DNA of 64,000 nucleotides from Microbotryum silenes-acaulis (Eukaryota; Basidiomycota; Microbotryomycetes; Microbotryales; Microbotryaceae), in the NCBI GenBank assembly GCA_003665825.1, contig QPFY01000003.1, positions 1,488,001 through 1,552,000 on the forward strand, in the 5' to 3' direction. Under the pieces are notes generated by a model. That model did not search any database, was not told the DNA's origin, and saw only the letters and a program-made list of their open reading frames with translations. Position numbers and translations under genes: made by a program. Positions 971 through 50,587 of the stretch are shown here, in pieces. Every line of letters starts with the position of its first letter. Position 1 is the stretch's first letter.

Positions 971-994
971 CGCCTCAGTGGACCACGCTGGAGG

Positions 995-1356: not shown

Positions 1357-2851
1357 CTTTTTTTTTGTTTTTGACTGGGGCTCATAAATTGCTATCCTTC
1401 GGGTTGGCTGGGACCGCTACAAAAAGAGCTAAAAGAGGTTACAAAGCAACGACGGCAAGCAGTTGGGTGAAAGTCAAACCCCTGCGCGCAAAGAGCGCTG
1501 CGCAGATCAAAACCCGCCGAGCACCTAACGCGGACTCCAACGGGCGGTGAGTACTGCTGCCGCTTCACGTCCCAAGAGTGGGAGCGAAGATACTCGAAAA
1601 CCAGGCAAGAGCGCCTAGAGAAAGAAAGGGGGAGAATATACAAAAAGTCACGACTGGAAACGCGAAGAACCAGGAATACTAAGGCAGAGAGGAGGGGAAC
1701 ACACCCGAGGGGCCAAGGGAGGGGGTCGAAGCCAGAGATAGAGGCCCCCAGGGACTAACAGGCCGGAGCCAAGCCCCAGCTACTCGTCACCCCGACAGCG
1801 CCTGATGCCCTCCCTTGGCTGAGTCTCGAGTGCTGGCTGTTGAGCCGTCGGGGCCGAGCGAAAGACGATCCAATACAACGAAACGAGCCTCGCCTTGACG
1901 CGAGGATGTCGACCAAAAACGAGCGACCTTTCTTCCTGATCCATGCCGTAGATCTTGACCAACGCGAACGAACGATCCATTCGACGGAATTCAACACACG
2001 GCTTAGGAATAAAAGGAGAAGTGGCTGAAGCGTAGTCAACAACCGAGCAACAGGAACGAGAAGAGGAAGGGAAGGGGAAAAGGGGGGGAAAGGAGAGGGG
2101 AAAACTTCACAAAGCCTCCAACGCAAAGACGATCGACCGGGCTTGCCGATCCATCCAAGAACGAAGACCGCTACTGCGCAAAGTAGAGAGAGAGAGAGAG
2201 AGGTGCGCAGCCTTCCACTGCGCAACAAGTTTCAAGACAATCAGCTTCTGAAAGAAAAGTCGACCTCCGAAAAAGAAGGGAGGAAAGGAGGGGAGGAAAA
2301 TGGGAAGGAAAGACTTGACTCGGTCATCACACCTCCCAATCTCGAGCCCCAGGCACAAAGCCCGCTCGAGAGAGAAAATCTCGCTCGAACGCTCTGAGTG
2401 CACTGGGCAGCGAGGGAGGGGCCACGACCTTGTCCAGCTCGAACCGCTGATGAACGCGCCAGCGGAGCAGGTGCAGCCGCTGGAAGCCGATCGCGCAAGC
2501 CAGCCGAACCCACATCCATTTCGAGGTCGTTCTCCCACGACCCCGCAAAAGGGGGAGCCCCATAGTCAGCTGCTCCGGAGTGAACGTCGACGGATCGACG
2601 TCGGTATCCTCGATGCCGAGCTTGTCGAACAGAATGCGAAGCACCCCGCCCCAGAAGCTGGTCGAGTACGCGCACTCGAAAAAGTAGTGCGACACCGTCT
2701 CGATGACCGCTGCATCGTTGCCGCAGAACAGACACGTCGGCGAAGAGGCATGACCCTGAGTATGCTGCCTCTTGCGCGTCGGCGTCACGTCGTACATGAG
2801 CCGCCAGTGGGTGTCCTGCTCCACAGCAGACGCGAACCGGTCATGAAGCCA
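1357..2851 (-). mobile_element. 5'-truncated LINE (copy B)
   Basis: This is a minus-strand copy of the element at 46168-50275, nearly identical over about 1.49 kb. It comprises the last ~175 codons of ORF2, the full 3'UTR with a GA/CT microsatellite (about 2180-2202), and the A-rich 3' end at about 1362-1375. Homology stops sharply at 2851, inside ORF2. The 5' truncation is typical of target-primed reverse transcription. The truncated end lies 58 bp upstream of tRNA-Glu and the element points away from the tRNA. Confidence 0.9.
2327..2851 (-). pseudogene. ORF2 C-terminal remnant of LINE copy B
   Basis: The open frame encodes the C-terminal zinc-finger region of a LINE reverse transcriptase protein, with motif CLFCG..HYFFEC. 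It matches the end of the protein at 46168-49296 almost residue for residue. Endonuclease and reverse transcriptase domains are absent because of the 5' truncation, so it cannot be functional alone. Confidence 0.85.
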
Positions 2852-2909
2852 TTTGCAACAAGTTTTTTGTCAATAAGGATATATTGAGCATGCTCAATCA
2901 GGTGTTCAA

Positions 2910-2980
2910 TCCTCGATGGTCTATTGGTATGATTCGGCTCTCTCACAGCCGCGAACGGGGTTCGATTCCCCGTCGGGGAA
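2910..2980 (+). tRNA. tRNA-Glu (anticodon CTC)
   Basis: A complete cloverleaf can be drawn. Acceptor TCCTCGA pairs with TCGGGGA (one G-T pair). Anticodon stem CGGCT/AGCCG closes loop CTCTCAC, giving anticodon CTC. T-arm CGGGG-TTCGATT-CCCCG carries a B-box consensus, and A2980 is the discriminator. A T-rich stretch follows immediately. It differs by one base from the second copy at 31424-31494. Confidence 0.95.
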
Positions 2981-2989
2981 TTTCTTTTT
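2981..2989 (+). terminator. Pol III terminator of tRNA-Glu
   Basis: TTTCTTTTT directly follows the tRNA 3' end, the usual oligo-T stop for RNA polymerase III. Confidence 0.75.
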
Positions 2990-3961
2990 GGTCCTGATTT
3001 GTCTGTGCTGCTCTGTACATGTTTTAGGTTTTTAGTCGTGTCGGAACCTCCCTTTGGTTTTTTTCACCTTGAACCCTCGACAAATAAGACTGGCGTCGGA
3101 ACCCGCTGCTCGGCGGGGCTTGCAACGGATGTGCCGCGCGCGAATGGCACTGCAGCCCGATAGTCTGCCCTCTGTCCGATTATAGAGAGGTTTTTGGTGG
3201 GTCATTATTCTGGAGTTCCCTTCGCCAGAAGCACACCATTGAGCTCCAGAGAATGTAAGGACAGCTCGCAAGGATTGGTGTCTGCAGCTCTTCATTTTTC
3301 GTGAAAGCATCGGTGAATGCCGCTTCATGACATTGTATGAAATGGAATAAAGCCGTTTTCTTCAGAAGAAGAGACTGAAAATGTAAGACAATTTCAAATA
3401 CTGCAATGTGCGTTACACGACGGCCTCAGCTGCAAGATCTGTTCGACTTGTCTGAAAATACCAAGTTTGTGTCGACAGAGACACCCAAGCTGGCACGACG
3501 AGAGGTGATCCCGCCTTGTGCTTAAAGACGGGGCATTAAGGGTTCGTATAATATGTAATCACTCTTGTCATCATCGAGTGTGAGGACGTCATCAAGCCGG
3601 TTGCGTATGAGCTCAGAATGAGGTTGTACGGCGGGTCGGCCCTGCCAGGCTCGGACTCGATGAAGCTCTCCGCAACACAGTAACGACCGCCGTCCAGATT
3701 GATTAACAATGTCTGGAGGGTAGAGGAGGTTAATCTCGAGACTCTCCACGAGATTCGACCAGAATTCTGCCAATTCGGCACACGTGTCGTAGATTTGAAG
3801 ATCAAGCTGGAAAATGCGCAGTCTTGGCAGGGATCAGAGGTGATCGCTCAACAGCGAGGCCGTGTCTTAAATGCTGACTTCGGAGTAGTCCTCATACTCC
3901 GACAGACACGCGCGATGCCGAGCTGGAACCTTTCCAAGGATGGGAAAGGTGAAGGTGTCAG
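2990..3961. other. Intergenic, no gene recognised
   Basis: Only short open frames without recognisable motifs are present. The stretch separates tRNA-Glu from the 5' LTR of the copia element. I see no tRNA, repeat or coding signal that can be supported. Confidence 0.5.
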
Positions 3962-4149
3962 TGTTAGAAGTGGGGTCTGAGAGCCTAACTCTTTTCTATT
4001 AGCCTTGTTAATTCTTTATTCTGCGTGCGCGCCTATCTCTGTCTTTGCCCCTTTTTTTCTTTCTGGTCTTCTTCTCCACGCTATTCTCATCATCTCACTC
4101 GTGTATCTCGGAGCTGAGTCGTGGAGTACCTCTTAGTCCTTATCTGTCA
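3962..4149 (+). repeat. 5' LTR of copia element
   Basis: 188 bp, TG..CA ends, matching 8547-8734 except for two bases in the CTTTGCCCC / CTTTGCGTC stretch. The promoter for the element should lie here. Confidence 0.92.
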
Positions 4150-4151
4150 AA

Positions 4152-4164
4152 GGTTATGAGCTCA
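4152..4164 (+). promoter_or_regulatory. Primer-binding site, half-tRNA initiator Met type
   Basis: GGTTATGAGCTCA lies 2 bases after the LTR. It is complementary to the anticodon-loop region of initiator tRNA-Met (..CTCATAACC). Priming from an internal tRNA-iMet fragment is established for Drosophila copia and yeast Ty5. The ATG inside this site (4156) is also the best Gag start codon. Confidence 0.75.
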
Positions 4165-7100
4165 GCGAGCGAACCCGATCCCCACAATGGGGCGGGCAAT
4201 CGCTTGTACCTCAAGGACACCAAAGGGTACAAGAGTTGGGCGTCAAAGGCGTATCTCAATTTACGAGGCGACGCACTATGGGACGTTGTTATCCACTCGG
4301 TCGACTCCCTCGTCGCGGACTACCGGTCCACCCTCGTTTCCGCCAATGCAACTGCGTCCGCCGCGCCTGTTGAACCCGCCTCCCCAGCTTTAGCGGGCTC
4401 GGGGGGGAGATCTGGTTCCGCGCCTTCAGCGGACGTCTTGCCCAACCTCACCAGCGTCCAAATTGCGGACAAGGTCGCGGTATTTCGCGAGAAAGCCAAA
4501 CGTCGTAACGAGCTAGCATGCAAGTTCCTCGCCAATGCACTTTCCGAGGAACAGATGGGCCACTGCGAACATCTCGATTCTGCGAAGGACATTTGGGACA
4601 CGCTCAAAGGGATCCACTCTCTCGGTCAATCGAGTCGTACCATGAATTTGCTCAGTGTTCTGATGCAACCATACACGGGTGATATCCCGTTCAAGGAGTT
4701 CGTCAACAAGGTCAAGATTGCCATGATCGACTTCAAGAACCTCGGTGCTCCGCTTCCGAACTGGTTGTTTGCAGCGATGCTTGTTCGCTCACTTCCTGAC
4801 CAGTACGACTCGATCGTTGGCAACCTCGCGTCCGATGTCGACATCCACATGGACTGGAACGCGTTCTATCCTAAGCTCCTTATGAACGTCGAGTTGGCCG
4901 AGTCTCGTAACAGACAGAAGGCATCGCTATCCGATCGAATTGTTGACGATAGCAGCCTCGTCGCTCGTATCTCTACTACTGCGCCAAAGGACTACTCCAA
5001 GTCGTACTGTTCTCGCTGCAAGGTCCACGGTCACGAACGTGGTTGGCGTCTCTGTCCAAGCAGGAACAACAATGCGAACGTCTCCGCTCCTGCCTCGGAC
5101 TCGAACTCGAACTCGAACGTTGCTGCCATTGGTGTAGACGAAACTGCATTGATGACCTACACTTTCCCTTACTCGAAGGCTATGCCTGTCTTTCCATGGA
5201 TCATTGATTCGGGTGCCAAAGTCCATTGCGTTGGTGACAAGTCGGTTATCTCGGACTTCATCTCTGAGCCGCTCGAAATCTCCGTCGCCGACCAATCTCG
5301 AGTAGACTCTCCAGGCCATGGCTCAGTGACATTCCTTACCTCCTATGGCTGTCGTATTACCTTGAAAAAGGTTTACTACATGCCCGGTGCTCAATGTGGC
5401 TTCATCTCGATCGATCGTCTGTTGGAATCGATGACGTACGTCGTGGGTCCTCAAAGCAACCTCATCTTCAGCGTCCGCGGAAGGTCGATCCTTCGTTCGC
5501 GTCCTGGTCGAGGCTTTGTCATGGATGCCGCTCCAGTTCAGCCTATCCTGTCATCCTCACCGCCGTCGATGGTCGCCGCCAATCGTCTCACTGGAACGTG
5601 CACGTTGATGGAGGCGCATCGGAAGTTGGGCCACCAATCTCCTGCGGCGATCGTTTTGGCCGTCAAGTCTGGGGCTATTACTGGCATCACTTTGAAGGAT
5701 GGAAAGGTCACTCCCTGCTTCTCGTGCATCCAGGCAAAGTCAAAGCGATCTCCCTTCTCCGCCAAGAGCACCGAAGCGCCTCACCCTCTCTATCGTGTCT
5801 TCATCGACCTTGGTTTCGTCGAACATTCCAACCACCATGGTGATACCATTTATCTCGCGATTGTGGATCAGTATTCGACGGCTAAATGGACGATCGTGCT
5901 GAAGGACAAGAGGGCGGAGACGATCATCGGAGCATGGACGAAGTTTCAAGCTGAGGCTGAGCGGCAGACAGGTCACAAGATCAAAAGGGTCAGGTCGGAC
6001 AATGGTCGTGAATTCGACAACTCGTTGTTCCGGGATCTTCTTGTGAAGTAGGGTATCATCGTGGAATTCACGGCGCCCTATACTCCGGAGCAAAACGGGC
6101 AAGTCGAACGACTTAATGGATCTCTCATGGGTCTCGTTCGATCAATGCTCCCCGACTCTGGTCTTCCCATGCGTTTCTGGTCGGATGCTCTCGCCGTCGC
6201 AACGTTTGTTCTCAATCGTCGACCACACCCTCGTATATCGGGAAAGACGGCGATCGAGGTTCTCCTTGGCAAGAAGCCCAACCTCACTCATCTTCAGCCA
6301 TTCGGATCTACGGCGTTCGTGCATGTCCCCAAGGAACGTCGGACCAAGCTTTCACCTCGATCCATTCAGGGAGTGTTCATCGGGTATTCCGGCGAGTACA
6401 ACTACCGTGTCTGGGTCCAATCCTCCAACAAGGTCTACGTCTCGCGTCATGTCACGTTCGTCGACACTTCTCCTCGTGCACCTCCTGTCGTTACCTCGAC
6501 TTAGGATCGGGTTGATGCTCCCATTCCTCCCATTCCTCCCATTCCTGTGTTCGATCCTCGTCCTCCGTCGCCCGAGATGCTACCGGTTACTCCGGTTTCG
6601 CCTGTCGTGACGCCACCCATCGGAGCCGATCAACCGGGGGGAGATCTTGGCGTTGTGCCTCCGATGGACGAAGAGGATGAGGACCACGACAGGCCGGAGG
6701 ACTTCCATGACGCAGAGGAATCTCTCGATGGCGAGGCGGAAGTCGCTCTCGCTCCTCGTGAAGGTTACGCGATCGTGCGTACTGGTCCAAACCCAGGCCA
6801 GTTTGAGAATGTCGATCCCTCCAACATCCTTCCTGCTGGCTCTCGTCGTCGACCTCAACCTCCCGACAAGGTTCTGCCCATCATTGCCGCTATCATGGTC
6901 GATGTCCTTAATACTCCACCTTTGTTCCACGACAAACTATCCTACGATGCCTACTGCGCTGCGGTGTTCGTCGAGGAAGACATCGAGATCCCCAAGACCT
7001 TCGAGGAGGCCATGAAGTCACCCTATCGCAACCATTGGATTGAGGCCATGGTCTCGGAGCTCCTTCAATTCGATCATCATGGAGTCTTCCAGGAAGTCAC

Positions 7101-8565
7101 GTGGCACGAAGGAATTCGGGTACTTGGCACGATCTGGGTCTACAGTATCAAACGCGATGCGAACGGGAAGATCATTCGTTTCAAAGCTCGCTTTGTTGCT
7201 CAAGGTTTCGCCCAACGCCCTGGCATCGACTACCATGACACCTACGCTCCTGTCGCTCGCTCGTCGACTATCCTATTCTTGATTGCTCTGGCTGCTGCTC
7301 AGGGTCTGCATCTCGAACAGTTCGACTTCGATTGCGCCTTCCTTAATGGCAAGATGACCGAGGATGTCTACGTTCGATATCCGAAAGGATGGAATGGTCC
7401 TAAATCCCCTGGCAAATGTCTCAAGCTCGTGGGCTCGATGTATGGTACCAAGCAAGCCCCTCGTGAATGGTATCGAGCTGTCAACGATCTCATGGTGTCT
7501 CGAGGGTATATGAGGGCCACTGCCGACGCCTGTCTCTACATCAAGCATTCGGGAACTTCGTTTGCTATCATCACTCTTTATGTTGATGACGGTCTCATCG
7601 CCTCCAATGATCAATCGTTCTTGGAGTCCGAGCTCTCTTCACTTCACAAGGCCTTCAAGCTCAAGCGTCTTGGTCCGGTGTCGTACTTCCTTGGCTTCGA
7701 GGTTCATTGCACCAAGGATCACATTCTCGTTCATCAGAGCAAGTACGTTCGGACCATGCTCGAGAAGTTCGACTTTGCCTCGCCTTCCAAGCGTCGTGCT
7801 TTCACGCCGATGGATGACCGTCCTTCGCTTCGAATTGATACAACTCCTTTCGCCGAAATTCCAATGCACCAGTCTGCTGTGGGTTCTCTCCAATACGCTT
7901 CGACTCGATGCCGACCCGATATTGCGATTGCTGTGCGTGCCGTGGCTCAAAAGAACTCCTGTCCTACTGTCGACGATTGGGCTGCAGCCAAGCGTATCTT
8001 CCGCTATCTCAACAGTACTGTCGATTGGGGAATCCTGTATCGCAACAGCTCAACTACTCGGGTGATGGTCTACTCCGACGCCTCCTTCGCCGATGATCCG
8101 GTATCTCGGAGATCGGTGGGAGCCTACGCATCAATGCTCGCTGGCGGCGCTATCTCATGGCAGTCAAAACAACAGTCCATGATTGCTACTTCAACTACCG
8201 AGGCCGAGATCCTATCTGCATCCTCAGCCACTCGTGAAGCAATCTGGCTCCGTCGCTTGGCAGGTGATGTTGGCATTCCCCAGTCTGGTCCCACCATCAT
8301 CCAAGAGGACAATGCGGCGTGCATCCAGATCGCCAAGGATCCTGTCGACCACATGCGTACCAAGCACTTCGACATTGCTCATCTGTTTGTTCGGGAACGT
8401 GTTGCTTCTGGCGAGGTCGAGCTCGAGTACTGTCCTACCCACGTCAACGCTGCGGATTTGATGACCAAGCCTCTGGGACCTCAGCGCTTCGATCAACTCC
8501 GCGCACTTCTTGGAATGGTCTCGTTAGTCTCTTTGACCGGTGGGAGTGTTAGAAGTGGGGTCTGA
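4156..8565 (+). pseudogene. copia Gag-Pol polyprotein, interrupted by two TAG codons
   Basis: This is one continuous frame of 1469 codons plus stop, apart from in-frame TAG at 6049-6051 (codon 632) and 6502-6504 (codon 783). Visible parts: Gag with a variant zinc knuckle (CSRCKVHGHERGWRLC); protease WIIDSGAK with the catalytic Asp at about residue 351; the HHCC pre-integrase region; an integrase core whose first stop falls between the second Asp and the Glu of the D,D-35-E triad; reverse transcriptase with YVDD at about 1142; and RNase H ending in ADLMTKPL. The first ATG of the longer open frame (4045) is inside the LTR, so 4156 is preferred. Both stops could come from CAG by a single C-to-T change. 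Without suppression no complete Pol is made. Confidence 0.9.
8535..8546 (+). promoter_or_regulatory. Polypurine tract of copia element
   Basis: GACCGGTGGGAG immediately precedes the 3' LTR, in the position of the plus-strand primer. It is only moderately purine-pure. Confidence 0.55.
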
Positions 8566-8734
8566 GAGCCTAACTCTTTTCTATTAGCCTTGTTAATTCT
8601 TTATTCTGCGTGCGCGCCTATCTCTGTCTTTGCGTCTTTTTTTCTTTCTGGTCTTCTTCTCCACGCTATTCTCATCATCTCACTCGTGTATCTCGGAGCT
8701 GAGTCGTGGAGTACCTCTTAGTCCTTATCTGTCA
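8547..8734 (+). repeat. 3' LTR of copia element
   Basis: 188 bp, 186/188 identical to the 5' LTR by hand alignment. Confidence 0.92.
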
Positions 8735-10428
8735 AATTCAGGTCAGAAATGCGATCGCGGCCGCGCCATGACCCACATGCTTGCTGCAGCTTTCGTCGAT
8801 CACGCAACGCAGACTGCGGAGATTAGAGGTGTTGGCATCCAGAAGCCGGATCACGAACGCATCTTGGTGACGTACTCAGCAATAGGGATATTCTCCTTCT
8901 TAAGACCGACAGTGTACGCGAGCGTTCTGAAGGGTACGCCGCGTGCGGATGAAGGACGCAAAATCCGCCTGGACGATAGGTCCTTGACAATGAGGGCTCC
9001 TTGAGGTGGGGGAGGACGGGCGCTGACGGGTTGGGTATGCCCGAACCGCCTTGGCTGTGACCGTACATCGTCGCGAATAATTAGTTTGTCCAGATCTTTT
9101 GCAAGGACGAAGGATGCATCGACCTCGTCAGCGGCAAGAGCCCTGTCAGATCTTCACGCGGACATACTTCTACAACTGTAATTGAAAAATTAAAAAAGTT
9201 AGTCTGTTTCGAACCACTAAAAAAATATACTTGAATCGACTACCTAAATCTGAAGAAGAACCGTAGTAAGGGAATAATCTAAAAGGCAGAAACGTTATCT
9301 TGTAGATTCCAGTGTATCATACACAAAGCCAGCATAGGTAGCGGTACCTTGGAGTTGCCCCATCAGGTTCTCTTCGAACACCAGGTCCTGACGTCGACGT
9401 CGCGAGGTCGAGTCAACGCAGGCTAGCAATACAACGGAATATGTCGAACTACGTCGGGTCGCAGGAGCTCAGGATATGAAGATAATGTAAGGGGTACACT
9501 TAGGTCCGGCCCAGTTGCGGCAGACCTGGGGTCGCTCTGAGATAGGATTCTTGGAGGCAGAGATGTTTGAAGAGACGACATAGGAAGGGTCCAATCCAGG
9601 CCTGGCAGACGCAAACTGCTCTTTTCAGGGCGTCACGGCCTTGACATCGTCTCAAACACAAACAGTAGATGGACAGGTACTCCTCACGTTTGTCATCTTC
9701 GCTTACGTAGTACCAAGGACGTAGGTCGTGCTTCTGAGTCGCCAGGTATGTGATCTCGTCGAGGACGTCGGTTGGCAGTCGCGGGAATACATCAGGCGCT
9801 CGGATGATTCGTGTCGCGTATTCTGTTCAGCATGGCTCTCCGCGGAGTTGCTCACGTCGTAGACGATGATGGGCATAGGAAATGTGCTTGAAAAGAGGCC
9901 AAGATAGACCAAGAGCTCTGCGTTTGTCAAGACAGCTAGTGAAAAACTTGGAGCTTGATTGTACGAATTTCGGCGCGGAGAGCCTTTGCGCCTCGAGCGC
10001 TCTGAGCCAGGCAGCCTTCCCGCCCTATAGAGCACGACACCTCGAATAGTCAACGATCTGAATATTCCTCGAAGTCAGACTTCAAGGCCGCCGCGGAGTG
10101 TGCCGCCCGCATCCAACGACCATCAGTGGCCCCTCTTTCCCCGAAAGCTTTCTAGAGTCACTTTTCCTAAGCTTGACGGGTACCAAGGCGTGTATATCGT
10201 GAAGGTGTCAGATTATACAGCAAGTAGGTAGCCAAACGAAGTTTACGTTTCACTGAGATTATGCTTGGCCGCGTCAAATCCTCCAGTACTTTTTCTTGTC
10301 TCGACACGCCAAAAATTGGAGGGTTGTTTGGGTTAGATGCTCCATCGAGACCGGGCGTCGCACGCCAGATCATCTAATCTGTTTCGTCCTAGTCATCGAC
10401 AACGCGTCACTCAAGTCAGGGTCCCATT
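8735..10428. other. Intergenic, no gene recognised
   Basis: About 1.7 kb with only short unconvincing frames and an AT-rich patch near 9180-9330. The right end should contain the 3'UTR of the cofactor B gene. Nothing else can be supported. Confidence 0.5.
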
Positions 10429-30088: not shown

Positions 30089-30537
30089 TGTTGATGATGG
30101 ATTTGGGTGGGTGAGGTAAGTGTTGAGTAGGAGTGGGTGAGGGGAAGGAGAGAGCGCAAAATGCTCTTGTGGTCCTTGTCTTCGAAGCGCGATGTGTTTC
30201 GTCAAACAAGCTTGTTTTGACACGCTGGCCCGCCCCAGCTCTGGGCCCTCGTTGACGATCGATGATGGGCGTGGACCTAGGTCGAGTCAGCTTGGGCGCT
30301 CGTTGCGCCGCCGCGGGGCCCGACTTGTACGCGCGTAGCCCTCCCTAGCTGGAGTCGACGGCTGACGCAGCTGCCACGCTGGCGACTGCTTGGATCGCTC
30401 ACTCGACCTCACTTGACGCGCGACAATCGCCTCGACTTGCCTTCGTGCCTCGACGGTTTCGCTTTCCTTCCTTCAACCCACTCAAACCAACTACTCACCA
30501 CCAAACTCCCCAATCCCAAACCCCTCAAATCTCAACC
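30089..30537. promoter_or_regulatory. Bidirectional H2A-H2B promoter region
   Basis: 449 bp between the start codons of divergent H2B and H2A genes, as in many fungi, which allows coordinate S-phase expression. Leader sequence before H2A is C/A-rich (30470-30537). No specific element can be named. Confidence 0.7.
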
Positions 30538-31094: not shown

Positions 31095-31423
31095 TCATCG
31101 GTCGGTATATCCCAGCTCTTGGCTTCGTTATTTTCTTTTTGTTGTACCTTTCCATCCTTGCGATTGCAACTTGCCTCCTTTTCACAATGGCAAACAAAAT
31201 CTAGAAACTCAATTTTAAGATCGCGAAGCACCAAATTTAACTCGGTAACGTCTGATCAGTTCAACCCTGAACTTGGAAAACATGTGGTCAACCGTTGTCC
31301 TTTGGTCGTCACCCAGCCCAGAACTTTTCCCGAGGTCAGCCTCAAGTCGTGGAGGCAAAAAGATACGGTGATATTCCGGCTTGACAAGGCATGTCAGATA
31401 GAGCACGGGCCGGCAAAAACACT
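31095..31423. other. Intergenic between H2A and tRNA-Glu
   Basis: 329 bp holding the H2A 3'UTR (T-rich from 31128) and the 3' flank of the minus-strand tRNA. No further feature is seen. The minus strand beyond the tRNA has no long oligo-T run directly at the 3' end, apart from a T-rich run about 35 bp away. Confidence 0.45.
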
Positions 31424-31494
31424 TTCCCCGACGGGGAATCGAACCCCGTTCGCGGCTGTGAGAGAGCCGAATCATGCCAATAGACCATCGAGGA
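31424..31494 (-). tRNA. tRNA-Glu (anticodon CTC), second copy
   Basis: Same cloverleaf as 2910-2980 with one substitution in the D-arm. Acceptor, anticodon loop CTCTCAC and T-arm are intact. A truncated LINE begins about 55-60 bp upstream of its 5' end and points away, as at the first copy. Confidence 0.94.
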
Positions 31495-31564
31495 TTGGGG
31501 GTACGCGGCAAAATGTCAAATCGATACTCATCAACCAATCACGTGATCAGAGACATCGTGTTCA

Positions 31565-32890
31565 CAGCCAAGTTCAAGGGGAACTGGGGGTGATCAGGAT
31601 GCAGGACGTCGTGGACGCGGTTGCGGCACGGATCTGGGACGTTCTTCTCGGCGGTTCTGGCGCGATCTGGCAAGGACTTGCGCGCGCGGCACTCCAGCGA
31701 GCTCAGCCCGACCTCGACCTGGCCACCGATCTCTGGCCACATCCATCCACTCCCATCCCCAATGGCACGCCGCACTGGGCGTTCCGAAACATCACGACGC
31801 GCAGGTCAACTCGAGGGCCTTGACCACCGCGAACCTGCTCGCGCTGCCCACCCTGCTCGGCAGCCTCCACACCCCCATCAGAGGGAAACAGACCATCGAC
31901 GCGGTTCATGTACCTGACTACCTTCGTCTCCAGGGCTACCCGAAGGTGGCGGATCTCTATCGGCGCGAGTTGTATGCGGGTGGGGGGTTTCACCTCTGGA
32001 CGCCGCCGGCGGATGTGCTCGGCGACAACAGCGAGTACGATCGACGCGGGCTCCCACGGCGACTGGCAGTCGCGGCCTGGTACCGGTTCACTGTCGATCG
32101 ACACAAGAACACGCCCTTGGCGGCGGCGGTGGCGGCGGGACGGCTCAACGTGCCTCCCCGGATCGGCACCAGCGCACTGCTCAAGGCGATCCTCCCCAAG
32201 CCCGTGGCCCGCTTCGCAATGGAGCAGCGCCTTCCGGACCCGGTGCTTCCACAACAGGCGAGCCAGTACAAGCTGCTGAACATGGCTCGACCCTACACCA
32301 TCCGTCGCATCCGCCGGGTCCTGAACGCGAAGGCCTTTACCAACACGCTCGGGCTCAAGGGACCACCGCAGCCGGACGATCTCAGGAGCTTCTGGAAGGC
32401 GGTCAACTCGAAGGCACTGACGGCGAGGGAGAGGGAAGTTTGGTTCAAGCTGATTCTCCGCTTCACCCCGACGCGCAAGCTGCAACACCAACAAAACCAC
32501 GACACTTCTCCCGCGTGCCTCGTCTGCAAAGCGCCGGTGGACGACACCGACCACTACTTTTTCGACTGCGTTGACTCGCGGAACGTCTGGATCGCGGCAA
32601 GGGGCGTGCTCTGCGATGCACTCGGGTGCGACACGATCGAGGACGCCCAGTACACGACACTGCAACGGCTCTTTGGCCTCCCCAAGCTCAAGGCCAAGCT
32701 CAGCGAACAGGAAGGGGCGGGCAGGACGATCGAGATCTTCACGGGGATGGTTTTGGAGATGATCAGCAGTGGGAGATGGAGGATGCAGAAGCACGGGACG
32801 AAGATGGAAAGCGTGGAGAGGAGGAGGGTGGTACTGGAGGAGAGGATGAAGTTGAGGGCGGGAGGAGCAAGGGGCGGGCGAGGGCAGTAG
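31565..32890 (+). pseudogene. LINE ORF2 C-terminal remnant with frameshifts
   Basis: Homology to the C-terminal part of LINE ORF2 starts in one frame (31565 to about 31805: ARIWDVLLGGSGAIW..LDLATDLW) and continues in another (about 31820-32890), so at least one indel is present. A second probable indel lies near 31580. The C-terminal zinc motif CLVCKAPVDDTDHYFFDC is intact. No endonuclease or reverse transcriptase core is present. Confidence 0.8.
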
Positions 32891-32918
32891 AGGCTGGGTT
32901 CGATTTCCCCCCACCATC

Positions 32919-32946
32919 CCACACACACACACACACACACACACAC
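32919..32946. repeat. (CA)n microsatellite
   Basis: About 13 uninterrupted CA units in the 3'UTR of the truncated LINE. Confidence 0.9.
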
Positions 32947-33235
32947 CACATCACACTTCCTCTTCCAAAACTGTATACTAAATATCTTGCTTTCATCTTT
33001 CATCTATTACAGGTCTGCTTTCGTTGCTCATGGACCGGCTCGCGATTTGGGATTGACTCGACGGTGGCTCGCGCTCTTTGGCTTCGGGGTTCTGAGTCAA
33101 GGGAGGGATCAGCAGACACAGGCAGAAAGTCGGCTTTGAGGGGCCAGGGACTGCTGAGGTGGAGGTTTTGAGGGGCCTCCACCGCGTCTTGCTGTGACCG
33201 AGCATAGACTTGGGGCTTCGTGGGTCAGGGTAGTT

Positions 33236-33548
33236 GCGCAGTCGCTCTCCTGTCTTTGTCTCGACCGAGTTGGGAAGTGGGTGCGGGGTGGGCCTCTTGT
33301 CGTTAGTAAATCGTTTTATTACTCTTTCTCTCCTTCTCTCTCTTTCATTCGTCTCCTGGGGGGGAGCAACCGCTTGGCTGGGGCACTTGAATCCCAAGTA
33401 TCGGATTGGTGGACACCGGCCCGTTTCTCGCATCTTGCGTGCGATTTGTGTTATCATCGTCGACTTCCATCTAGTTTTTCCGTAGGACAATCAGGGGAAA
33501 CAGGAATTGGGGCCAATATGATGAACAGTTTCTACAAAAAAAAAATGG
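33236..33548 (+). mobile_element. Orphan LINE 3' tail, third family
   Basis: About 310 bp ending in GTTTCTACAAAAAAAAAA. It matches 50277-50580 closely (CTCCTGTCTTTGTCTCGACC.., a CT-rich run, GGGGGGGAGCAACCGCTTGG.., GATGAACA..). No coding sequence is attached in either place, so this is the 3' end of a LINE family whose body is not in the window. Confidence 0.75.
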
Positions 33549-33712
33549 TGGGTTTTGATCTGCACAGCGCTCTGTGCGCGCAGGTATTTGACTTTCACCC
33601 AACTGCTTGCCGTCGTTGCTTTATAACCTCTTTTAGCTCTTTTTGTAGCGGTCCCAGCTAACCCGAAGGATTGAAATTTGTGAGCCCCAATAAAACAAAA
33701 AACAAAAAACGG
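33549..33712 (+). mobile_element. Orphan LINE 3' tail of the 46-50 kb family
   Basis: TTTTGATCTGCACAGCGC.. to GAGCCCCAATAAAACAAAAAAC. This is the 171-bp tail seen at 50105-50275 with several substitutions, including changes in the stem of the CTGCGC..GCGCAG hairpin. Confidence 0.8.
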
Positions 33713-33950
33713 ATTGGTGGTCTTGGCCCGTTTCTCGCATCTTTGCGGGCGGTTTGTGTTATCATTGTCGACTTCGACCTAGTTTTTTCGTAGGCCAATC
33801 GGGGGAACAGGAATTGGGGGCAGAATGATGAACAGTTTTTACCAAAATGAAAACGTAAATAAGTCAGACCCAGCCAAGGGAGGATTTTAGGCGCTGTCGA
33901 TGATGAGTAGCTGGGGCTTAGCTGCCGCATGTTAGTACCTACTTATTATG
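33713..33950 (+). mobile_element. Further LINE tail pieces
   Basis: 33713-33850 repeats the last ~140 bp of the third-family tail (GGATTGGTGG.. GATGAACAG). 33867-33945 resembles the 3'UTR segment 49812-49890 of the 46-50 kb family (CAGCCAAGGGAGG.. GTAGCTGGGGCTT). All pieces keep plus orientation. Confidence 0.65.
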
Positions 33951-36029
33951 GGTATGGGTACCCGAACCGGGCGCGAGCCGAGCGCTGCCGAATGAGACAA
34001 GCCGTCATTCCAAGACACAGTAGGTAGTGCATTCGTCATCTTCGGCGCTAGTAAAGCCACGTGAAGCACATGCTGCGCCGCAGCGTCCGGGCTCCACATG
34101 AGGATGGACTGAGTTTCAGCCTGCTCCGCGTTTTTTTAAAATCTTATGTAGATGTAGATAGCAGAGGTGATTTATAGGCCTTGATATAATTAGACTCTGA
34201 TTGACATCTATTAGATATTAGAAATATCAGATTGAAATAAAATGCCAGTGTTTGATCGACAGGGGAGCCTGAATGGAATGAGAATTCGAATTCCGGACGT
34301 GCCCTTTAATCGATTCACTCAGCACTGGCCCCGGCTTGCACGTTCCATCCATGTCTTCCAAAGGTATTCTCACTCTGTCGCTGACAACTCATGACACCTT
34401 CTGTCCCGCTGATCACTCCTCGTGGAATGTGGTGCACGCCCTGCTCTTACTGCGCCTCGGCCCGACGTGCACTCGGGGGTGGGCGAAGGAAAGCCTTTCG
34501 CAACGGTGCACGTCGCGGGAGGCCGATTCTAATCGAGCGTTAGGGTGTATAACTGTTCACTGAGAGGAAGAGACGATCAGGCATGGCTATCACGTGCATG
34601 CACGTTTATGCACACGACGACAGAGGGGAATGGCTGTCAGCAGCTCCTTTAACTCACAACACCTCGGGATAGGTCAGATGAGGATGGGGCCCGGATAATG
34701 GAGAGGAAGTAGGGACGTTTGGGGGTTCGCTGTGTTTGCTTTCTCTTATCACGTGCACATAGTTGGTGTGTTGGGAATGAGGGTTAGGAATGGCGCGTTC
34801 ACTGTAGAACTCCACGGTTGGTGCGCATCGCCAGGCTTCACTAAACAGACGAGCGCTTCTAAACAGATTACCAGTGAACGCGCCATTCCTAACCCTCATT
34901 CCCAACACACCAACTCACATTTGGGCCGCGTCGCACAGCGGATCCGACAGCTCTCTGTTGTTTGGTTTCTCATTGATTGGGTAGAACAGACCCCGATGAT
35001 TGATCTCACAGGCGCCGAAGCTTCCGGCGCCCTCGACGTGCAGAGCGTCCCCAGCGCGGATTTGGAACGTGAGCCCTTTGCTTCTCCACAGTCAGCGGCC
35101 AGTCGCAATATCCGAGTTGGAGCAAAGCGGGATCAGACAATGGGTTGCTACTAGTAATTCACCTGCCCAGCTGGTTGCCACCGATTTCGTCGACGTGATT
35201 ACGATGCGGGTCATTCGCCAGATCGTCGAATCTGCTAAGAAGAAGACACAAGAATGGCCGCGATTTGGCTGTCGAAAATTCAACTCTCAACGTTCAACAG
35301 GGTGGGAACTTGTGAGCAACGCTCCGACTACGTGCCAGATCAGTCGCCGCCTCCCACCGGGGCGACGGGCGGGCTTGGCGCTTGGAGCTTTTTGGAATCT
35401 GCATCCGATCGGCTGCGAGGTCAAGGCGCTGTCCCGGTTCGAGGTAGGCACCATTCGACTTGGCTAGCAGCCCCAGACGCGCGCAGGTTGGTGCTGAGAC
35501 CGCTACAAAAAATTGCGATGTAGCCTTCATGAGCTCCTGCAGGTGCTTGAGAGGCCGACGATCGACTACATTGAAGGGGAATATCGGCCGCAGGGGGAAA
35601 GAGGGACGGTACGAATCCGCCGATTGCGGCTTCTTGAAACATGCTCAGTTCTCGTGCCGCTCCGACCTCATCAACAAGAAACCATTACCCTCATGATGCC
35701 GTGCCAACTTTTGCCAAGTCTCCAACGGCTGCGCGCGCGACCGACGGCCGTTCGACGGAGGGGAGCGCGCTTCGCCAAAGGTTCACAGAATCCGCGCAGC
35801 CAGCTCCTGCCAGCTCCAACCCCACGACGTCTCGGGACCTTTTTCACGCGCGCTCTCTCAGTTGGTGTCTTCTCTTGCCTCACCCTATTACAGCGTACCT
35901 CCTACTCTCTTGCTCCTACCTTCATCTGTCATACGTTACGTGTCGGCACACTGCTCGCCTGCCCCTCCTCACTAACGCATGACTCGACTTTGATGCGCCT
36001 CTGAACAGTCGATCGAGCCTCACTCCACC
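33951..36029. other. Intergenic, no gene recognised; contains an inverted repeat
   Basis: About 2 kb with an AT-rich section (34135-34250) and a perfect inverted repeat (34761-34915, listed separately). Short frames here have no motifs. The right end should be the promoter and leader of the RAX1-like gene. Confidence 0.5.
34761..34915. repeat. 43-bp perfect inverted repeat with 69-nt spacer
   Basis: Arms 34761-34803 and 34873-34915 are exact reverse complements. The left arm begins AGTTGGTGTGTTGGGAATG. There are no open frames of note and no obvious target duplication at the outer ends. Confidence 0.95.
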
Positions 36030-38002
36030 ATGTCGACCAATTCAAGCTCACCCACCCGTTCGCCTGGTTCCCCTCCGCTGGCCCCACCCAAAGGCCGTTA
36101 TCGCCTGTCGTCGCTGCTGTATGCCCCCAATCGCTTGTTGCACCCCGGTCAGCGTATAGAGCACGAGCGTCGACGTCGCTCCTCTTCAATCCGTGGCATC
36201 GAACAGAAATTCGGCGGAGCGACAGCTGGCCAGGTGAGCCATACTTCGGAATCCGCTCTTCTTCAGGCACTCGCGGCTGGGTCCCAGTGGTCACCGCTCG
36301 CTCGAGCTTGCCGACTATCTCCACTTCTCGCTCTTCTACTTATTTCAGTTTCAACTCCTCGAGAGTGCGTGCCACCTTGGAGGGCCTTGGACTTGAGGTG
36401 ACTTCGTGGCAGGAGCGCAATCCGGTCGAACGGATCGATCCACCACGGTTGGAGTCGCCACGCATCCGGCCGCACGTGCCTGAGCCAAGGCACGGATCGC
36501 CCACCGCCCCGGTCTCGTCTCGGCAAGCGTGAAAACCCACCTGCCCTTCGGCAGGTCGTGCGCTCCGCCTCCTCGGTCGATCACGCTTGGGGATGCACTG
36601 TGCCACGATAACGACTCGCCCAGACTCTGGTCTTTCTGTCCCTGTCATATCTCTGTCGGCACCACTACTTCAGCCTCTTGGATTCACGATTCAAGAAGCT
36701 GACCTCGGTATCCTCGCGCTCGAATGTCCGTCGTCCCGTCCATGCTCGCTTCCCCCCTCCCCCCTTTCCAGGTCCGCGGCGCACGCGTCAAGTTGTGCGA
36801 GGTCCAGCTCGATGATGTGATTGCAGGAAAGTACACACCTCCCATCGGACTGAAGGACTTTGAGGACTACCTCTGCTTCCGTACCAAGAGTGCCGAAAAC
36901 CTGTGAGTGCTTTCCTCTCAGTCAAGGCGCTTTGGCTCGGCTAGGTGCTCATGTCCGTTCTTCGGGACTGATATACCCACCTCCTCCATCTTCGACCAGC
37001 TACTTTGAGTTCTGGCTCCGACACTACGCGGCGATGTACAACATGGCGACCCCCTCGACGCGTTCGCACGCCGACATGCTCGCTCTCGGCGAATCTTACC
37101 GACAGGCGCTCGACATCTTCTTCTCTTTACAATCCCCCCTCGAGCTCAACATCGCGTCCGATCTCAGCCACAACCTCGCGGCCGCAGTCAAGGGCGTCGA
37201 ACAGCAGGCGAGAATCGACCCGTCGCGCGAGGACTTTCTCCCGCCCTCGGCATTCGCGGCCGTGCACCACGAGACCAACGAGAGCTTGGCGCAAAGCTTC
37301 AAGTCTTTCTTGATGCAATCGTCGCGCAACGCCAATCGCAACCGTGCGAGGTTCGCCATGTTCTTGGGCCTCATACCCACACTTGTCTGCGCCTCTCTGG
37401 GCAAGAATCGTGGTTGGCGTGCTCTGGACTTCCCGCTGTGGTGGTTCGGCATCGTCGTGCTCGTCGGTGGACTGAAGCGCACTTGCCTGGTCATCTACCT
37501 CTTTGGCGACAATCGTCAGCTGTACTCGTGGGAGCTTGCTCGCGAAACCGACGTGTCAGGCTCATCCATCTACGGTAGCGACGTGTCGGCGACCCTAGCC
37601 GAGATGGAGGAAGGCAAGTCCCCAATGTGCGACTTTGACTCGACGCTCAAGTCAGGCGCGCCTGGCTCGCCCGACTCGGAGACCGCACCCTCGACCTCGT
37701 CACGTCGCTCCTCTGGCCACTTCCCGGACCTCAACTACTTCCGCTTGCAACGCGCCCATTCGCTCTCGGACAAGTTGATCACAACGACAGCTACTACCTC
37801 GGGTGGTCTGTACTTCGCGTCCGCGCACCTCAACAAGAAGGCCTTGCCCAAGAGCTCGGGGGTCTGGGCCCCTTTTACGTGCATCACCGAGCCCATCGTC
37901 GCGCAAGCTCAACGCGAGATCGTCGTCGCCGGCGCGTGCTATGGCATCGCCGTCATGGTCGTCACCGGTGCGATCTGCATGGCCGTCCCCAACCGTCGCT
38001 AG
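36030..38002 (+). CDS. RAX1: RGS-domain membrane protein, RAX1-like
   Basis: Exons are join(36030..36233, 36772..36902, 37000..38002), 445 aa, near yeast Rax1 (435 aa). The 538-nt first intron is unusually long for this window, so an unseen small exon is possible. The N-terminus is basic and Ser/Pro-rich. The RGS fold runs from about residue 90 (LKDFEDYLCFRTKSAENLYF, EFWLRHYAAMYN) to ESLAQSFKSFL. Three hydrophobic segments follow: FAMFLGLIPTLVCASLG, LWWFGIVVLVGG.. and, at the C-terminus, YGIAVMVVTGAICMAV. Rax1 with Rax2 marks division sites for bipolar budding in yeast. Function here is inferred from architecture. Confidence 0.8.
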
Positions 38003-38464
38003 TTGCCTGACGTTTGTTTCTATATCATAATATACGCCGGCTCTGTTCCCCCACTTTTCAAAAACAAGTCACTCACTTGTTCACTCGCACGTCGCTTCGT
38101 TGTTTTCGTCGTTCGAGGCCCTCTAAGAATTTGCATTCTTGTCGTCTCGCTTTCATAATGCTGAGGGGTGGGGGATTTAAGCAGTCGGTGCCGTGAGGAG
38201 AGGGAGCTATTGTAGAATGACGCTGGGCCGAAATGGTTCTTCATCTTGTGCGAGGGCCGGCCTCGCGGGTGAAACAAAAAAACTAGGACGAGCTCGGGTT
38301 TGAAACCTCAGCCTCTAGGGGTCCATGAAACATGCGAGTTTGAAGCAAAATCAGGGTGCTAGCACGACAAATGAGCTAAACGAGGGCGGAAGCACTCCAC
38401 AACCGAACTTGAATGAAAGAGCGAAAAAGCACCTTTCGGGACCGGCATGGGTAGGCAAAAAAAA
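38003..38464. other. Intergenic between RAX1-like gene and tRNA-Arg
   Basis: 462 bp with the 3'UTR of the RAX1-like gene. The A-rich stretch 38455-38464 is the oligo-T terminator of the minus-strand tRNA. A weak B-box-like patch on the minus strand at 38290-38315 does not fold as a tRNA. Confidence 0.5.
38457..38464 (-). terminator. Pol III terminator of tRNA-Arg
   Basis: Eight T on the minus strand directly after the tRNA 3' end. Confidence 0.85.
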
Positions 38465-38546
38465 CGATCACGAAGGGGATCGAACCCTCGATCTTCCCCT
38501 TGTCATAAAGTAGGAGGGGGACGCCGTACCGCTTGGCCACGCAACC
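38465..38546 (-). tRNA. tRNA-Arg (anticodon CCT) with a 10-nt intron
   Basis: Minus strand. Acceptor GGTTGCG pairs with CGTGATC (three G-T pairs). D-arm GCC..GGC; anticodon stem TCCCC/GGGGA. The loop is CTCCTA + CTTTATGACA + A, so the anticodon is CCT with an intron after position 37, the standard place. T-arm GAGGG-TTCGATC-CCCTT. Oligo-T follows. The wobble-rich acceptor lowers certainty slightly. Confidence 0.85.
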
Positions 38547-38683
38547 GGTCATGTCAGCGGACCCTCGGTTGGACAAAATTAGCAAACTTATAAAAAATAA
38601 CTGCCTCATCCCAATCGCACTACCCTACCTCTGCAAACGTCAATACATCAAATACATCAACTGCTACACCAGCTATCGACCCG

Positions 38684-40615
38684 ATGTCCGACCAGGCACC
38701 GCCTGATCCGGGCCGCGGCCCTCCGGAGCCGGCAGCGACGGGACAACCACGTGGTGACGCGGGGGCGGAAGCCGATGCCGCCGAGGGACCAGCGAACCCC
38801 GGCCTAGCGCTGTACCAGGAAAAGCGTGATGAAGAAAAGAAGAGGAAAGAGGATGTCGCGAGAATCCTGAAGATGATCAGTGTCGAAGATGGCACACGCC
38901 AGGGCACCCGCATCCTTGTGCTCAAAGACGCACTCGGCTTCGGCAAGGACCGGGCCACCTCCCTGCGCTTCAGCGCACTCAATGCAACGAAACCAATTAC
39001 CGACACGTCTGGTGCCGTTCTGGAAGTCACGTTCGAACACACCGGCGTGGCCACCGAACGCGAGAAGTCCGAGTTGTACTCGAAGGTGCTCCGTACCCTG
39101 TCGCCCGACACGTCGTTGTGTTTTAACCTGCCCGCAGGAGTTGTCCTCCCGCCCGAGCTCCAGAAATACGCTCCAATAATCCATGGAGTCGCACCGGAAT
39201 CGATCATCCAAAGCGGTAACACCCGGTTCAAGTTCGTGGTGCGCTGCGCTAGCGCAGCGGCGCTCGACCAAGTCCACGACGCGGCGACCAAGATCGAGTG
39301 GAAACGCTCCTTTGCCCAAGTCCGCAAGCGCTTGGCGTTCGTCAAAAACGTCGTCGAACTGCGTTTCATTATCAGTCCTGAGGCCGAATACACGAACGAC
39401 GACCTCTGGAACAAACTGCAAGGCGTCGGCGCCAAGCTTACCGGGGACGGCCACAAGTGCGACTTGCTCCAACTCCAGCAGCCTCTAACGGTCGTTCAAG
39501 GCTCGTACCTCGTCGCTCGAGGAAACTACGCGGCCATCGTCCAGTTCGACGACGACGACCTGTTCAAGAACAACGGTGCTCAACTTCGGCAGGTTCTACC
39601 GACGAGGATCGACCTTCGGGGACGACTCGCAACACTCACGCCCCTTCGCCACGACTACGAGGCCGAAGCCTCGTGCCGCCGATGCGGCTTTGTAGGCCAC
39701 TCCGACAACTGCGTTCAAAAGCCGGTCCAGCGTCAGCAGGCCTCCCAGAAAAACAACAACAACCAAAGGCCCCAGGCCGAGCCCCAAAGCAACATCGAGC
39801 AAACCTCGACCCCCCAAAAACAACGCAGAGGTGATGTAGCCTCTCCCTCTCCCCCAATGTCTCCTGTCGCGTCCAAGCGTTCAAAGAAGAACGCATCTCC
39901 CACAAGGGACACTAACAACTCACCACGAGTCTACCCTACTCGTTCACAAAGCTCTACACCCATAGCATCCGCCCCTCGCGGTTTCATCGTCGCCGCAAAC
40001 CCATTCGCAAGTCTGGCCGGCGACGTAGCCGAGGAGGCGCAGGAGGAGCCCGCTCAGGCCCTCGAGGACGACGAGGACGCGATGAGCGTAGTCGAGGCAC
40101 AGCTGGAACAACAGCAGGAAGTGCCGCCGCTGGAGCTTTCGGATCTGTCGGATCTGCAGGACCGCGGAGCGGAGGGGAACCAGGGGGAACACACGGAGAC
40201 GAGTGACGCGGAAGAAGGGGAATCGCAGTCGGCCGAGACGGGTCACCATCAGCTTGATATGGACGGCCTTCCCGACGACTGGATGAATCGTGTGTCGGAT
40301 CGCGAGCGCAAACAGGATGCTGGTCTATACGATGAGATCACCGAGTTGGACCGCACCCCGTCTGTGACCGGTTGGATGCCTTCGCCGTCTCCAGGTCCAG
40401 TGTTTGATCCCGAGCCCGAGCCCAAGCCCAAGCAGGAGGTGGACGATGGAAGTTCCCAGGGTCTTCGCCGGTCCGAGCGTATCCAGCGTCTCACCAGCGT
40501 CGCGCGCACATCGGACTGGAACGAATCGACTGCTGCGGACCCGCTCCCCTCACCCACATTCGGACCTATGTTGTCCATCAAGGGAGCTGCTGCTGCAACG
40601 AAGGCGCGATCGTAA
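38684..40615 (+). CDS. LINE ORF1 protein (RNA-binding, zinc knuckle)
   Basis: 643 aa. Ala/Pro/Gly-rich start (MSDQAPPDPGRG), then a charged helix (YQEKRDEEKKRKEDVARIL) and a central domain to about residue 320. One CCHC knuckle, CRRCGFVGHSDNC, lies near residue 335. A Gln/Asn-rich linker and a long acidic, low-complexity C-terminus (EEAQEEPAQALEDDEDAM..) follow. ORF1 proteins coat the element RNA and act as chaperones in the particle. The stop codon overlaps the ORF2 start (TAATG at 40613-40617). Confidence 0.88.
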   Translation: MSDQAPPDPGRGPPEPAATGQPRGDAGAEADAAEGPANPGLALYQEKRDEEKKRKEDVARILKMISVEDGTRQGTRILVLKDALGFGKDRATSLRFSALNATKPITDTSGAVLEVTFEHTGVATEREKSELYSKVLRTLSPDTSLCFNLPAGVVLPPELQKYAPIIHGVAPESIIQSGNTRFKFVVRCASAAALDQVHDAATKIEWKRSFAQVRKRLAFVKNVVELRFIISPEAEYTNDDLWNKLQGVGAKLTGDGHKCDLLQLQQPLTVVQGSYLVARGNYAAIVQFDDDDLFKNNGAQLRQVLPTRIDLRGRLATLTPLRHDYEAEASCRRCGFVGHSDNCVQKPVQRQQASQKNNNNQRPQAEPQSNIEQTSTPQKQRRGDVASPSPPMSPVASKRSKKNASPTRDTNNSPRVYPTRSQSSTPIASAPRGFIVAANPFASLAGDVAEEAQEEPAQALEDDEDAMSVVEAQLEQQQEVPPLELSDLSDLQDRGAEGNQGEHTETSDAEEGESQSAETGHHQLDMDGLPDDWMNRVSDRERKQDAGLYDEITELDRTPSVTGWMPSPSPGPVFDPEPEPKPKQEVDDGSSQGLRRSERIQRLTSVARTSDWNESTAADPLPSPTFGPMLSIKGAAAATKARS

Positions 40616-49414: not shown

Positions 49415-49453
<39 letters not shown>

Positions 49454-50275: not shown

Positions 50276-50276
50276 A

Positions 50277-50580: not shown

Positions 50581-50587
50581 ATTAAAA

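Follow-up and report, generated by a model that had tools for sequence, protein, structure and literature searches.

The window analysed here is a 64,000-bp stretch of the genome of the anther-smut fungus Microbotryum silenes-acaulis (C3:1488001-1552000; C-numbers denote contigs and L-numbers locus labels), which carries three tRNA genes, each standing at the head of a stack of long interspersed nuclear elements (LINEs) drawn from three families that we call A, B and C. A first-pass annotation had noticed LINEs lying upstream of all three tRNA genes and directed away from them, an arrangement that ARAGORN, Rfam and BLAST searches confirmed, and its count of at least two families sharing the geometry rose to three. 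From a sample of the tRNA genes in the 29.85 Mb assembly (88 contigs), we conclude with high confidence that tRNA genes set the integration site of families A, B and C, which lies ~63 bp upstream of the tRNA 5' end, and that the elements are inserted with their 5' end towards the tRNA. The three stacks consist of the following features (window coordinates; ORF, open reading frame; APE, apurinic/apyrimidinic endonuclease):

2910..2980, + strand: tRNA-Glu(CTC), anchor of stack 1 (ARAGORN, Rfam)
1357..2857, - strand: LINE family B, 5'-truncated, nearest in stack 1, near end 52-57 bp from tRNA-Glu
1006..1355, - strand: LINE family B, tail only, behind the first copy of stack 1 (family B match 1027-1346, 98.4%; direct repeats)
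1..999, - strand: LINE family B, 5' part (ORF1 region), third in stack 1 (98.7% match), extending past the window edge
31424..31494, - strand: tRNA-Glu(CTC), anchor of stack 2 (below the Rfam cut-off)
31548..33546, + strand: LINE family C, 5'-truncated, stack 2, 53 bp from tRNA-Glu
33547..33711, + strand: LINE family B, tail only, stack 2 (match 33547-33687, 94.3%; poly-A)
33710..33846, + strand: LINE family C, tail only, stack 2 (87.8% to the reference)
38464..38547, - strand: tRNA-Arg(CCT) with a 10-nt intron, anchor of stack 3 (Rfam 38465-38546)
38607..46054, + strand: LINE family A, full-length, stack 3, 59 bp from tRNA-Arg, with a poly-A end
38684..40615, + strand: family A ORF1, its stop overlapping the ORF2 start as TAATG
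40615..44655, + strand: family A ORF2, APE endonuclease and reverse transcriptase (RT)
46065..46168, + strand: LINE family A, tail only, second in stack 3 (direct repeat, 100%)
46169..50276, + strand: LINE family B, 5'-truncated, with RT and zf-RVT, third in stack 3 (profile and BLAST matches)
50277..50592, + strand: LINE family C, tail only, stack 3 (match 50277-50570, 90.2%)
50593..51018, + strand: three family B tail units in tandem, outer end of stack 3 (direct repeats)

The nearest copy of stack 1 is covered by a family B match at 1378-2852 and includes an inverted repeat (2185-2857) that is 100% identical to 48766-49438, whilst stack 2 is made up of the family C copy, which contains the C-terminal part of ORF2 with zf-RVT, the tail and poly-A, followed by the B tail, the C tail and a doubtful B fragment. 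The tRNA-Arg was found by ARAGORN only when introns were allowed. LINE 5' ends had been placed 58 bp upstream of the first tRNA-Glu and 55-60 bp upstream of the second; the adjoining elements and their positions stood (52-57 bp and 53 bp), but in both cases the near end is a truncation point and not the true 5' end. At the tRNA-Arg the full-length element proved as described, with the ORF1 ATG at 38684 and the element start at 38607. BLAST of the whole window found no piece of families A, B or C outside the three tRNA-anchored stacks.

Genome-wide, our tRNA sample comprised 46 Rfam matches, ranked by tRNA score and blind to LINEs, and is a partial one (63 of 669 candidates scored); together with the two window tRNA-Glu genes this gave a survey set of 48, or 40 ordinary tRNAs after the removal of eight carried within long terminal repeats (LTRs). 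Using BLAST with low complexity masked, an upstream piece of a LINE or of a short interspersed nuclear element (SINE) was found at 34 of the 40 ordinary tRNAs, pointing outward in 34/34 and lying within 105 bp in 33. Without the three window tRNAs, 31 of 37 had an upstream, outward piece. The nearest piece formed a sharp peak at 50-80 bp (29 ordinary tRNAs), and among 28 tRNAs with at least 1.4 kb of downstream sequence examined none had a LINE or SINE within 1.2 kb downstream, the single downstream piece lying at +1290 bp at L015. The first-pass annotation had asked for a genome-wide peak of LINE ends 40-100 bp upstream of tRNA genes in a fixed orientation, and on this sample both were present, so that its reading of a tRNA-targeted LINE is supported by the sharp distance peak and the single orientation.

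The geometry was equally clear when only LINE ORF matches were counted (187 intervals from 279 match rows, merged into 161 copies, leaving out secondary, duplicate and distant-family rows). Within 3 kb, 26 of 40 tRNAs had a match upstream and directed away, with 0 in each of the other three arrangements, whereas random placement of the tRNAs on 21 contigs (2000 trials) yielded on average 0.30 and at most 3 upstream-away cases, which excludes chance; the first-pass annotation had held chance unlikely on the basis of three genes. Extending the limit to 5 kb gave 28 upstream-away, 1 upstream-toward, 2 downstream-away and 0 downstream-toward. A different explanation for such a pattern is survivorship, in which elements insert widely in a compact genome and persist only in the gene-poor DNA upstream of tRNAs, and the DNA flanking tRNA genes has indeed been discussed as a likely refuge for elements in such genomes (PMC5006619). 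However, selection would not fix one orientation (34/34) or a distance of 63.2 ± 4.8 bp, nor would it empty the downstream flanks (0/28 within 1.2 kb), and on the orientation and distance evidence we rejected survivorship as very unlikely indeed.

Several tRNA loci have unusual surroundings. At L088 (C7:1149481-1150990) seven tandem ~150-bp copies of the 5' half of a tRNA-Leu gene and its upstream flank lie between the tRNA and the LINE stack, with the first LINE piece ~65 bp past the last half-gene; similar half-tRNA repeats were seen by eye at L037 and L010. At C4:779003-805276 two divergent tRNA-Lys genes lie 26 kb apart, and LINE matches occupy much of the interval.

The distance between tRNA and element behaves as a ruler. 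Across 28 loci with a piece within 80 bp, the element lies 63.2 ± 4.8 bp from the tRNA 5' end, and this distance does not follow gene length (slope 0.10, p=0.24), which in this set varies between 71 and 117 bp owing to introns and the variable arm. The distance from the B box to the element is 123.8 ± 13.2 bp in the same loci and increases with gene length at a slope of 1.10 (p=4.6e-13). L069 was left out of the distance statistics, because L068 and L069 are the two arms of one palindrome. Removing the window tRNAs and the SINE loci gave 64.3 ± 4.4 bp (n=23), and adding the four outliers at 89-99 bp (n=32) gave a standard deviation of 11.7 for the 5' end vs. 17.1 for the B box, with slopes of 0.08 vs. 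1.08. A B-box pattern search, which was not used for the statistics, returned 91+89 matches vs. 26+26 for the reversed pattern. As the 5'-end distance is constant whilst the B-box distance grows one-for-one with length, the ruler is the gene start and not the B box. The first-pass annotation had suggested contact of ORF1 with TFIIIB or TFIIIC as a possible route; the result speaks for a measure taken at the gene start, by way of the A box and TFIIIB, rather than for one through TFIIIC bound at the B box.

Targeting could still be real with a beacon other than TFIIIB, namely TFIIIC, RNA polymerase III (Pol III) itself or an open chromatin edge, a version that we regard as possible but rather unlikely. 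In its favour, U6 and 5S, the only non-tRNA-type Pol III genes examined, have no nearby LINE, so a tRNA-type TFIIIC platform may be needed: no LINE was found within 1.5 kb of U6 (two identical loci, Rfam score 43.3 vs. a cut-off of 44), and by eye no listed LINE match lies near the one 5S gene found, although these samples are too small for a sparing of other Pol III genes to be claimed. The independence of the distance from the B box argues against a ruler at TFIIIC's B-box contact, whilst the beacon could be TFIIIC bound at the A box, or Pol III positioned at the start site. The U6 match itself (L080, L081; two identical copies, one ~2.5 kb from the end of C16) covers 204 bp vs. the 105-position model, and the gene may hold a ~100-nt insertion, possibly an intron.

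A further alternative is a sequence-specific endonuclease that recognises a motif upstream of tRNAs, such as TCACGTGA or a TATA-like box. The first of these, TCACGTGA, was found in the 110 bp preceding 6 of 48 tRNAs (L013, L015, L064, L071, L075 and window 31539-31546) and several times adjoins the junction, and GGGGGCGG occurs in the same interval at another 6 of 48 (L005, L010, L014, L024, L032, L072). Against this, the 25 aligned insertion junctions contain almost no information (highest column 0.42 bit), these being BLAST edges, mostly of truncated 5' ends, and thus uncertain in position by a few bases; neither motif is present at 36 of the 48 loci; and LINEs also lie beside LTR-borne tRNA-like genes in unrelated DNA (see below). 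On the junction evidence a DNA motif was rejected as very unlikely, and TCACGTGA and GGGGGCGG are possible upstream elements of Pol III genes.

The elements themselves form three related families of APE-type non-LTR retrotransposons (LINEs). ORF2 of families A, B and C contains Exo_endo_phos and RVT_1 domains above the cut-off (Exo_endo_phos barely so in A and B), with human L1 ORF2p as the best solved relative (E 4.5e-28), and the elements end in poly-A and are frequently 5'-truncated. A zf-RVT domain was detected in B and C and was not detected in A at E 0.001, and no Pfam RNase H family was found at E 0.001 in A or at E 1 in the full B and C ORF2. The predicted model of family A ORF1 suggests an RRM-like region at about residues 70-350 (low-confidence, pLDDT 49), and a CCHC-like knuckle was seen by eye. 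In A and C the stop codon of ORF1 overlaps the start codon of ORF2 within the sequence TAATG, whilst in B the ORF2 ATG comes after a TAA. Family A ORF2 shares 97%, 92% and 88% identity with proteins of M. silenes-dioicae, M. saponariae and M. intermedium; for the window MUS81 gene the values are 96% (M. silenes-dioicae), 91% (M. lychnidis-dioicae) and 75% (M. intermedium), which places the host near M. silenes-dioicae within Microbotryum. Family A has been active recently, to judge from 21 near-full-length ORF2 matches of 99-100% identity, of which 18 lack an internal stop. Each family seems to have its own short 5' repeat: TTTCATC arrays of 0-30 units at family A 5' ends (L007, L018, L043, L046-L049; 0 in the window copy), TTCAC at family C 5' ends (L068, L069, L019) and possibly a CA array at a family B 5' end (L064). 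These arrays are possibly a product of integration or promoter units.

Approached from the element side, the same association is seen. Among the 30 best-scoring of 99 family A ORF1 matches, 28 contain the 5' end. A tRNA lies directly upstream of ten of these (59-93 bp) and, beyond a single LINE tail, upstream of three more (157, 234 and 268 bp); nine adjoin another LINE's poly-A tail (four of the nine are in one C7 array, L052 and L053 are duplicates, and the B tails at L045-L049 were assigned by eye). On C7, positions 1150990-1200745 form a regular array of family A copies. A fourth LINE lineage, whose ORF2 is 42-46% identical to that of family B, is present in three copies, one of them on C15; for the other two ARAGORN found no tRNA in the upstream intervals C2:1949800-1954100 and C8:912600-916500, a weak control as the 5' ends were not located.

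Target-site duplications (TSDs) allow some of the stacks to be ordered. For 8 of 21 loci tried there was no recognisable 3' end, and L029 was left out. In 4 of 12 inner elements we found a 5-6 bp TSD: CGTGCA (L003), GACCT (L075), ACCCCT (L006) and CATCT (L020). In these four the right copy of the duplication either touches the outer element or lies no more than about ten bases from it, which would place the inner element later than the outer one. Summed over the 12 inner elements, the TSD match was equalled by 6 of 733 mismatched pairings.

A natural experiment is provided by tRNA-like genes that are themselves mobile. Eight of the 46 Rfam tRNA matches belong to one repeat, in which a complete tRNA-like gene is enclosed in an LTR of 151-158 bp bounded by TG...CA (the final base is G in one copy); ARAGORN assigns the gene the anticodon TTA, TGA or GAA. 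Such LTR-borne genes, with a copia-type LTR of ~157 bp, lie at L027-L031 and L065-L067, plus L035 and L038. Five of the eight copies are flanked by perfect 5-bp TSDs (AGCTT, GAGTC, GCACT, TCATC, GGGAC) and the other three adjoin shared internal sequence; L027 is preceded by a copia RT fragment (RVT_2, E 5.4e-5, short of the curated cut-off and truncated by the locus end). A reading of these genes as ordinary tRNA-Ser or suppressor tRNAs was dropped after the LTR ends and TSDs were seen. At L035 (TSD ACGTC) a LINE A 5' array begins 61 bp from the tRNA-like gene, 24 bp past the LTR, and at L038 (TSD ACCAG) another begins 67 bp from the gene, 30 bp past the LTR. Both insertions are in unrelated non-LTR DNA and represent two independent copies, L061 being a duplicate of L035. 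With LINEs at 61 and 67 bp from the tRNA-like genes of two independent LTRs, it seems to be the tRNA unit as such that is targeted. Most probably each LTR was in place before the LINE; the opposite order is conceivable for one case, but would need near-equal spacing to have arisen twice. In the window, a separate copia LTR retrotransposon (3954-8736, with 198-bp LTRs 98% identical) lies ~1 kb downstream of the tRNA-Glu at 2910 and is not obviously tRNA-linked.

The same site is also used by a non-autonomous element. Upstream of a tRNA-Ser (L013:941-1441) and a tRNA-Gln (L015) lies a ~480-bp unit that starts 60-61 bp away and points outward. It consists of a head with A and B boxes (recognised by eye), a body and a 3' portion that closes with GTTCTAC and poly-A. 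A third copy (L082) contains an exact B-box match at C1:508601-508611 and is called by ARAGORN as a tRNA-Thr-like gene; no such call was made in L013 or L015. Over its last ~170 bases the unit can be aligned with the family C tail right up to the terminus (score 58 vs. a maximum of 39 in 500 shuffles), whilst alignments with the A tail (38; shuffle maximum 44) and the B tail (23; maximum 36) were not significant. With a Pol III promoter head and a LINE-shared tail, the unit belongs to the tRNA-derived SINE class. It is low-copy, with 15 genome matches, most of them partial, and of four loci examined two are at a tRNA, the near-full L082 is inside a LINE stack and the partial L083 has no tRNA in the 1.05 kb examined. 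No TSDs of the SINE were found at L013 or L015. Its presence at the LINE site, with a family-C-like tail, suggests that LINE enzymes confer its targeting in trans.

A number of observations weigh against tRNA-directed integration, or limit how far our counts can be taken. Six of 40 ordinary tRNAs have no piece at all (L010, L014, L024, L025, L073, L074); at one other the closest piece is 245 bp away, and at a further four it is 89-99 bp away. None of the eight LTR-borne tRNA-like genes has a LINE within 105 bp, L029 having one at 205 bp. Of the 12 inner elements, five have no TSD and three have one of only 3 bp. Six of 28 family A 5' ends have no recognised tRNA or LINE tail immediately upstream (L037, L040, L041, L050, L054, L058): at L037 the element starts behind copies of a half tRNA-Leu gene, L040 and L041 are mutual duplicates with a degenerate tRNA-like stretch seen by eye, and L054 adjoins another family A copy in the opposite orientation, whilst ARAGORN found no tRNA anywhere in L037, L040, L041, L050 or L058. 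The tRNA set is, as stated, a fraction of the candidates, and for L013, L016 and the window tRNA-Arg the BLAST library contained pieces taken from those same loci, with independent backing for L016 from a B ORF2 match and for L013 from L015. Finally, several loci are duplicates (L068/L069, L035/L061, L052/L053, L040/L041 and the C7 array), so the counts are not all independent events.

This last point touches on segmental duplication, in which a tRNA and its LINE would have been copied jointly from a few founder loci. Real duplications do exist, including the C14 palindrome with its identical loci L068 and L069, the C7 array and the identical pair L035 and L061, but the occupied genes are of different tRNA species with unrelated spacers, most loci do not have spacer and downstream DNA in common, the pieces come from three LINE families and their junctions fall at many truncation points; on the spacer evidence this explanation was rejected, and its probability is close to negligible. 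The palindromic duplication on C14 spans ~695-736 kb around two tRNA-Thr genes.

Integration directed by the tRNA gene remains our preferred reading, and a mechanism can be sketched. The beacon would be an initiation complex of Pol III once assembled, and within it most probably the upstream margin of TFIIIB. The ORF1 or ORF2 protein would contact this beacon, the APE domain would nick the adjoining free DNA, and families A, B and C would then be integrated by target-primed reverse transcription, the SINE reaching the same site presumably with LINE enzymes. Repeated insertion at one site would build the outward-pointing stacks, with the newer copy nearest the tRNA, as in the few cases that could be ordered. 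In a wider form, which we consider reasonably probable, the three LINE families and the SINE would all use tRNA genes as a common landing pad under one TFIIIB-side ruler, with age-ordered stacks and with LTR-borne tRNA-like genes creating new pads. LTRs with a tRNA-like gene would create such pads wherever they go, and thus one retrotransposon class would seed the targets of another.

As most sampled tRNA genes bear LINE pieces, this behaviour bears on genome assembly and on tRNA-gene evolution in these fungi. Among the papers listed by searches of an open-licence library (Repbase, subscription papers and supplements were outside its scope) we found no report of a tRNA-gene-targeted LINE in a fungus. 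The main text of two papers on Microbotryum transposable elements (TEs) does not contain the whole word tRNA (PMC10502011, PMC5381629), and a third gives LINEs as 7% of TE sequence and a count of 134 tRNAs (PMC4469406). Fungal LINEs with biased insertion sites are known in Cnl1 of Cryptococcus and Zorro of Candida, but these are described at telomeres, subtelomeres or poly(A) sites and not at tRNA genes (PMC7175516). The yeast elements Ty1 and Ty3 also land upstream of tRNA genes, Ty3 using TFIIIB (PMC5911963), but they are LTR elements with an integrase and thus of different chemistry, and Ty3 is reported in both orientations and Ty1 over ~1 kb (PMC5911963, PMC7175516). For the LTR-borne tRNA-like genes, the closest likeness is to Helenus, a group of terminal-repeat retrotransposons in miniature with a tRNA-like sequence, which the ~157 bp LTR, TG...CA ends and 5-bp TSDs recall. 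Helenus was reported absent from Microbotryum (PMC10886601), yet a Helenus-like LTR is present here; unlike Helenus, three of eight copies adjoin shared internal sequence, one with a copia RT upstream.

Targeting of tRNA genes by LINEs has previously been described in social amoebae. NLTR-B of Polysphondylium pallidum is a non-LTR element found 39-64 bp upstream of tRNA genes, but is described as having three ORFs and RNase H instead of a zinc finger (PMC5911963), whilst no RNase H was detected in families A, B and C. The first-pass annotation had likened the window to TRE5 of Dictyostelium discoideum, and the geometry agrees (PMC5911963): TRE5-A, B and C are likewise two-ORF, APE-type LINEs inserted upstream of tRNA genes in opposite orientation, and one tRNA gene may bear more than one TRE (PMC5911963, PMC5391098). 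The authors of the TRE5-A study argued that the distance is set by the A box and not by the B box, and placed position 47 just upstream of the TFIIIB-covered DNA (PMC5391098). The systems differ in spacing, reported as 44-54 bp (47 ± 3) for TRE5 vs. 63.2 ± 4.8 bp in Microbotryum, and in ORF2, which in TRE5 follows a -1 frameshift vs. the TAATG overlap seen in the sequence of A and C. TRE5 has a zinc-finger domain, whereas here zf-RVT was detected in B and C but not in A; the known non-autonomous partner of TRE5, TRE5-A.2, is a TRE5-A derivative (PMC5391098), whereas here the partner is a tRNA-headed SINE. In D. discoideum 61% of tRNA genes are reported with any TRE and ~24% with TRE5-A (PMC5391098), vs. 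34 of 40 sampled here. With spacing and ORF layout differing, the Microbotryum LINEs are best called TRE5-like in geometry, and the occurrence of this habit in a basidiomycete, as opposed to an amoeba, suggests that tRNA targeting may have evolved independently. The basidiomycete case thus offers a second system for asking how a LINE reads the Pol III machinery, in which natural variation in tRNA length separates gene-start from B-box rulers and LTR-borne tRNA-like genes serve as natural transplants.

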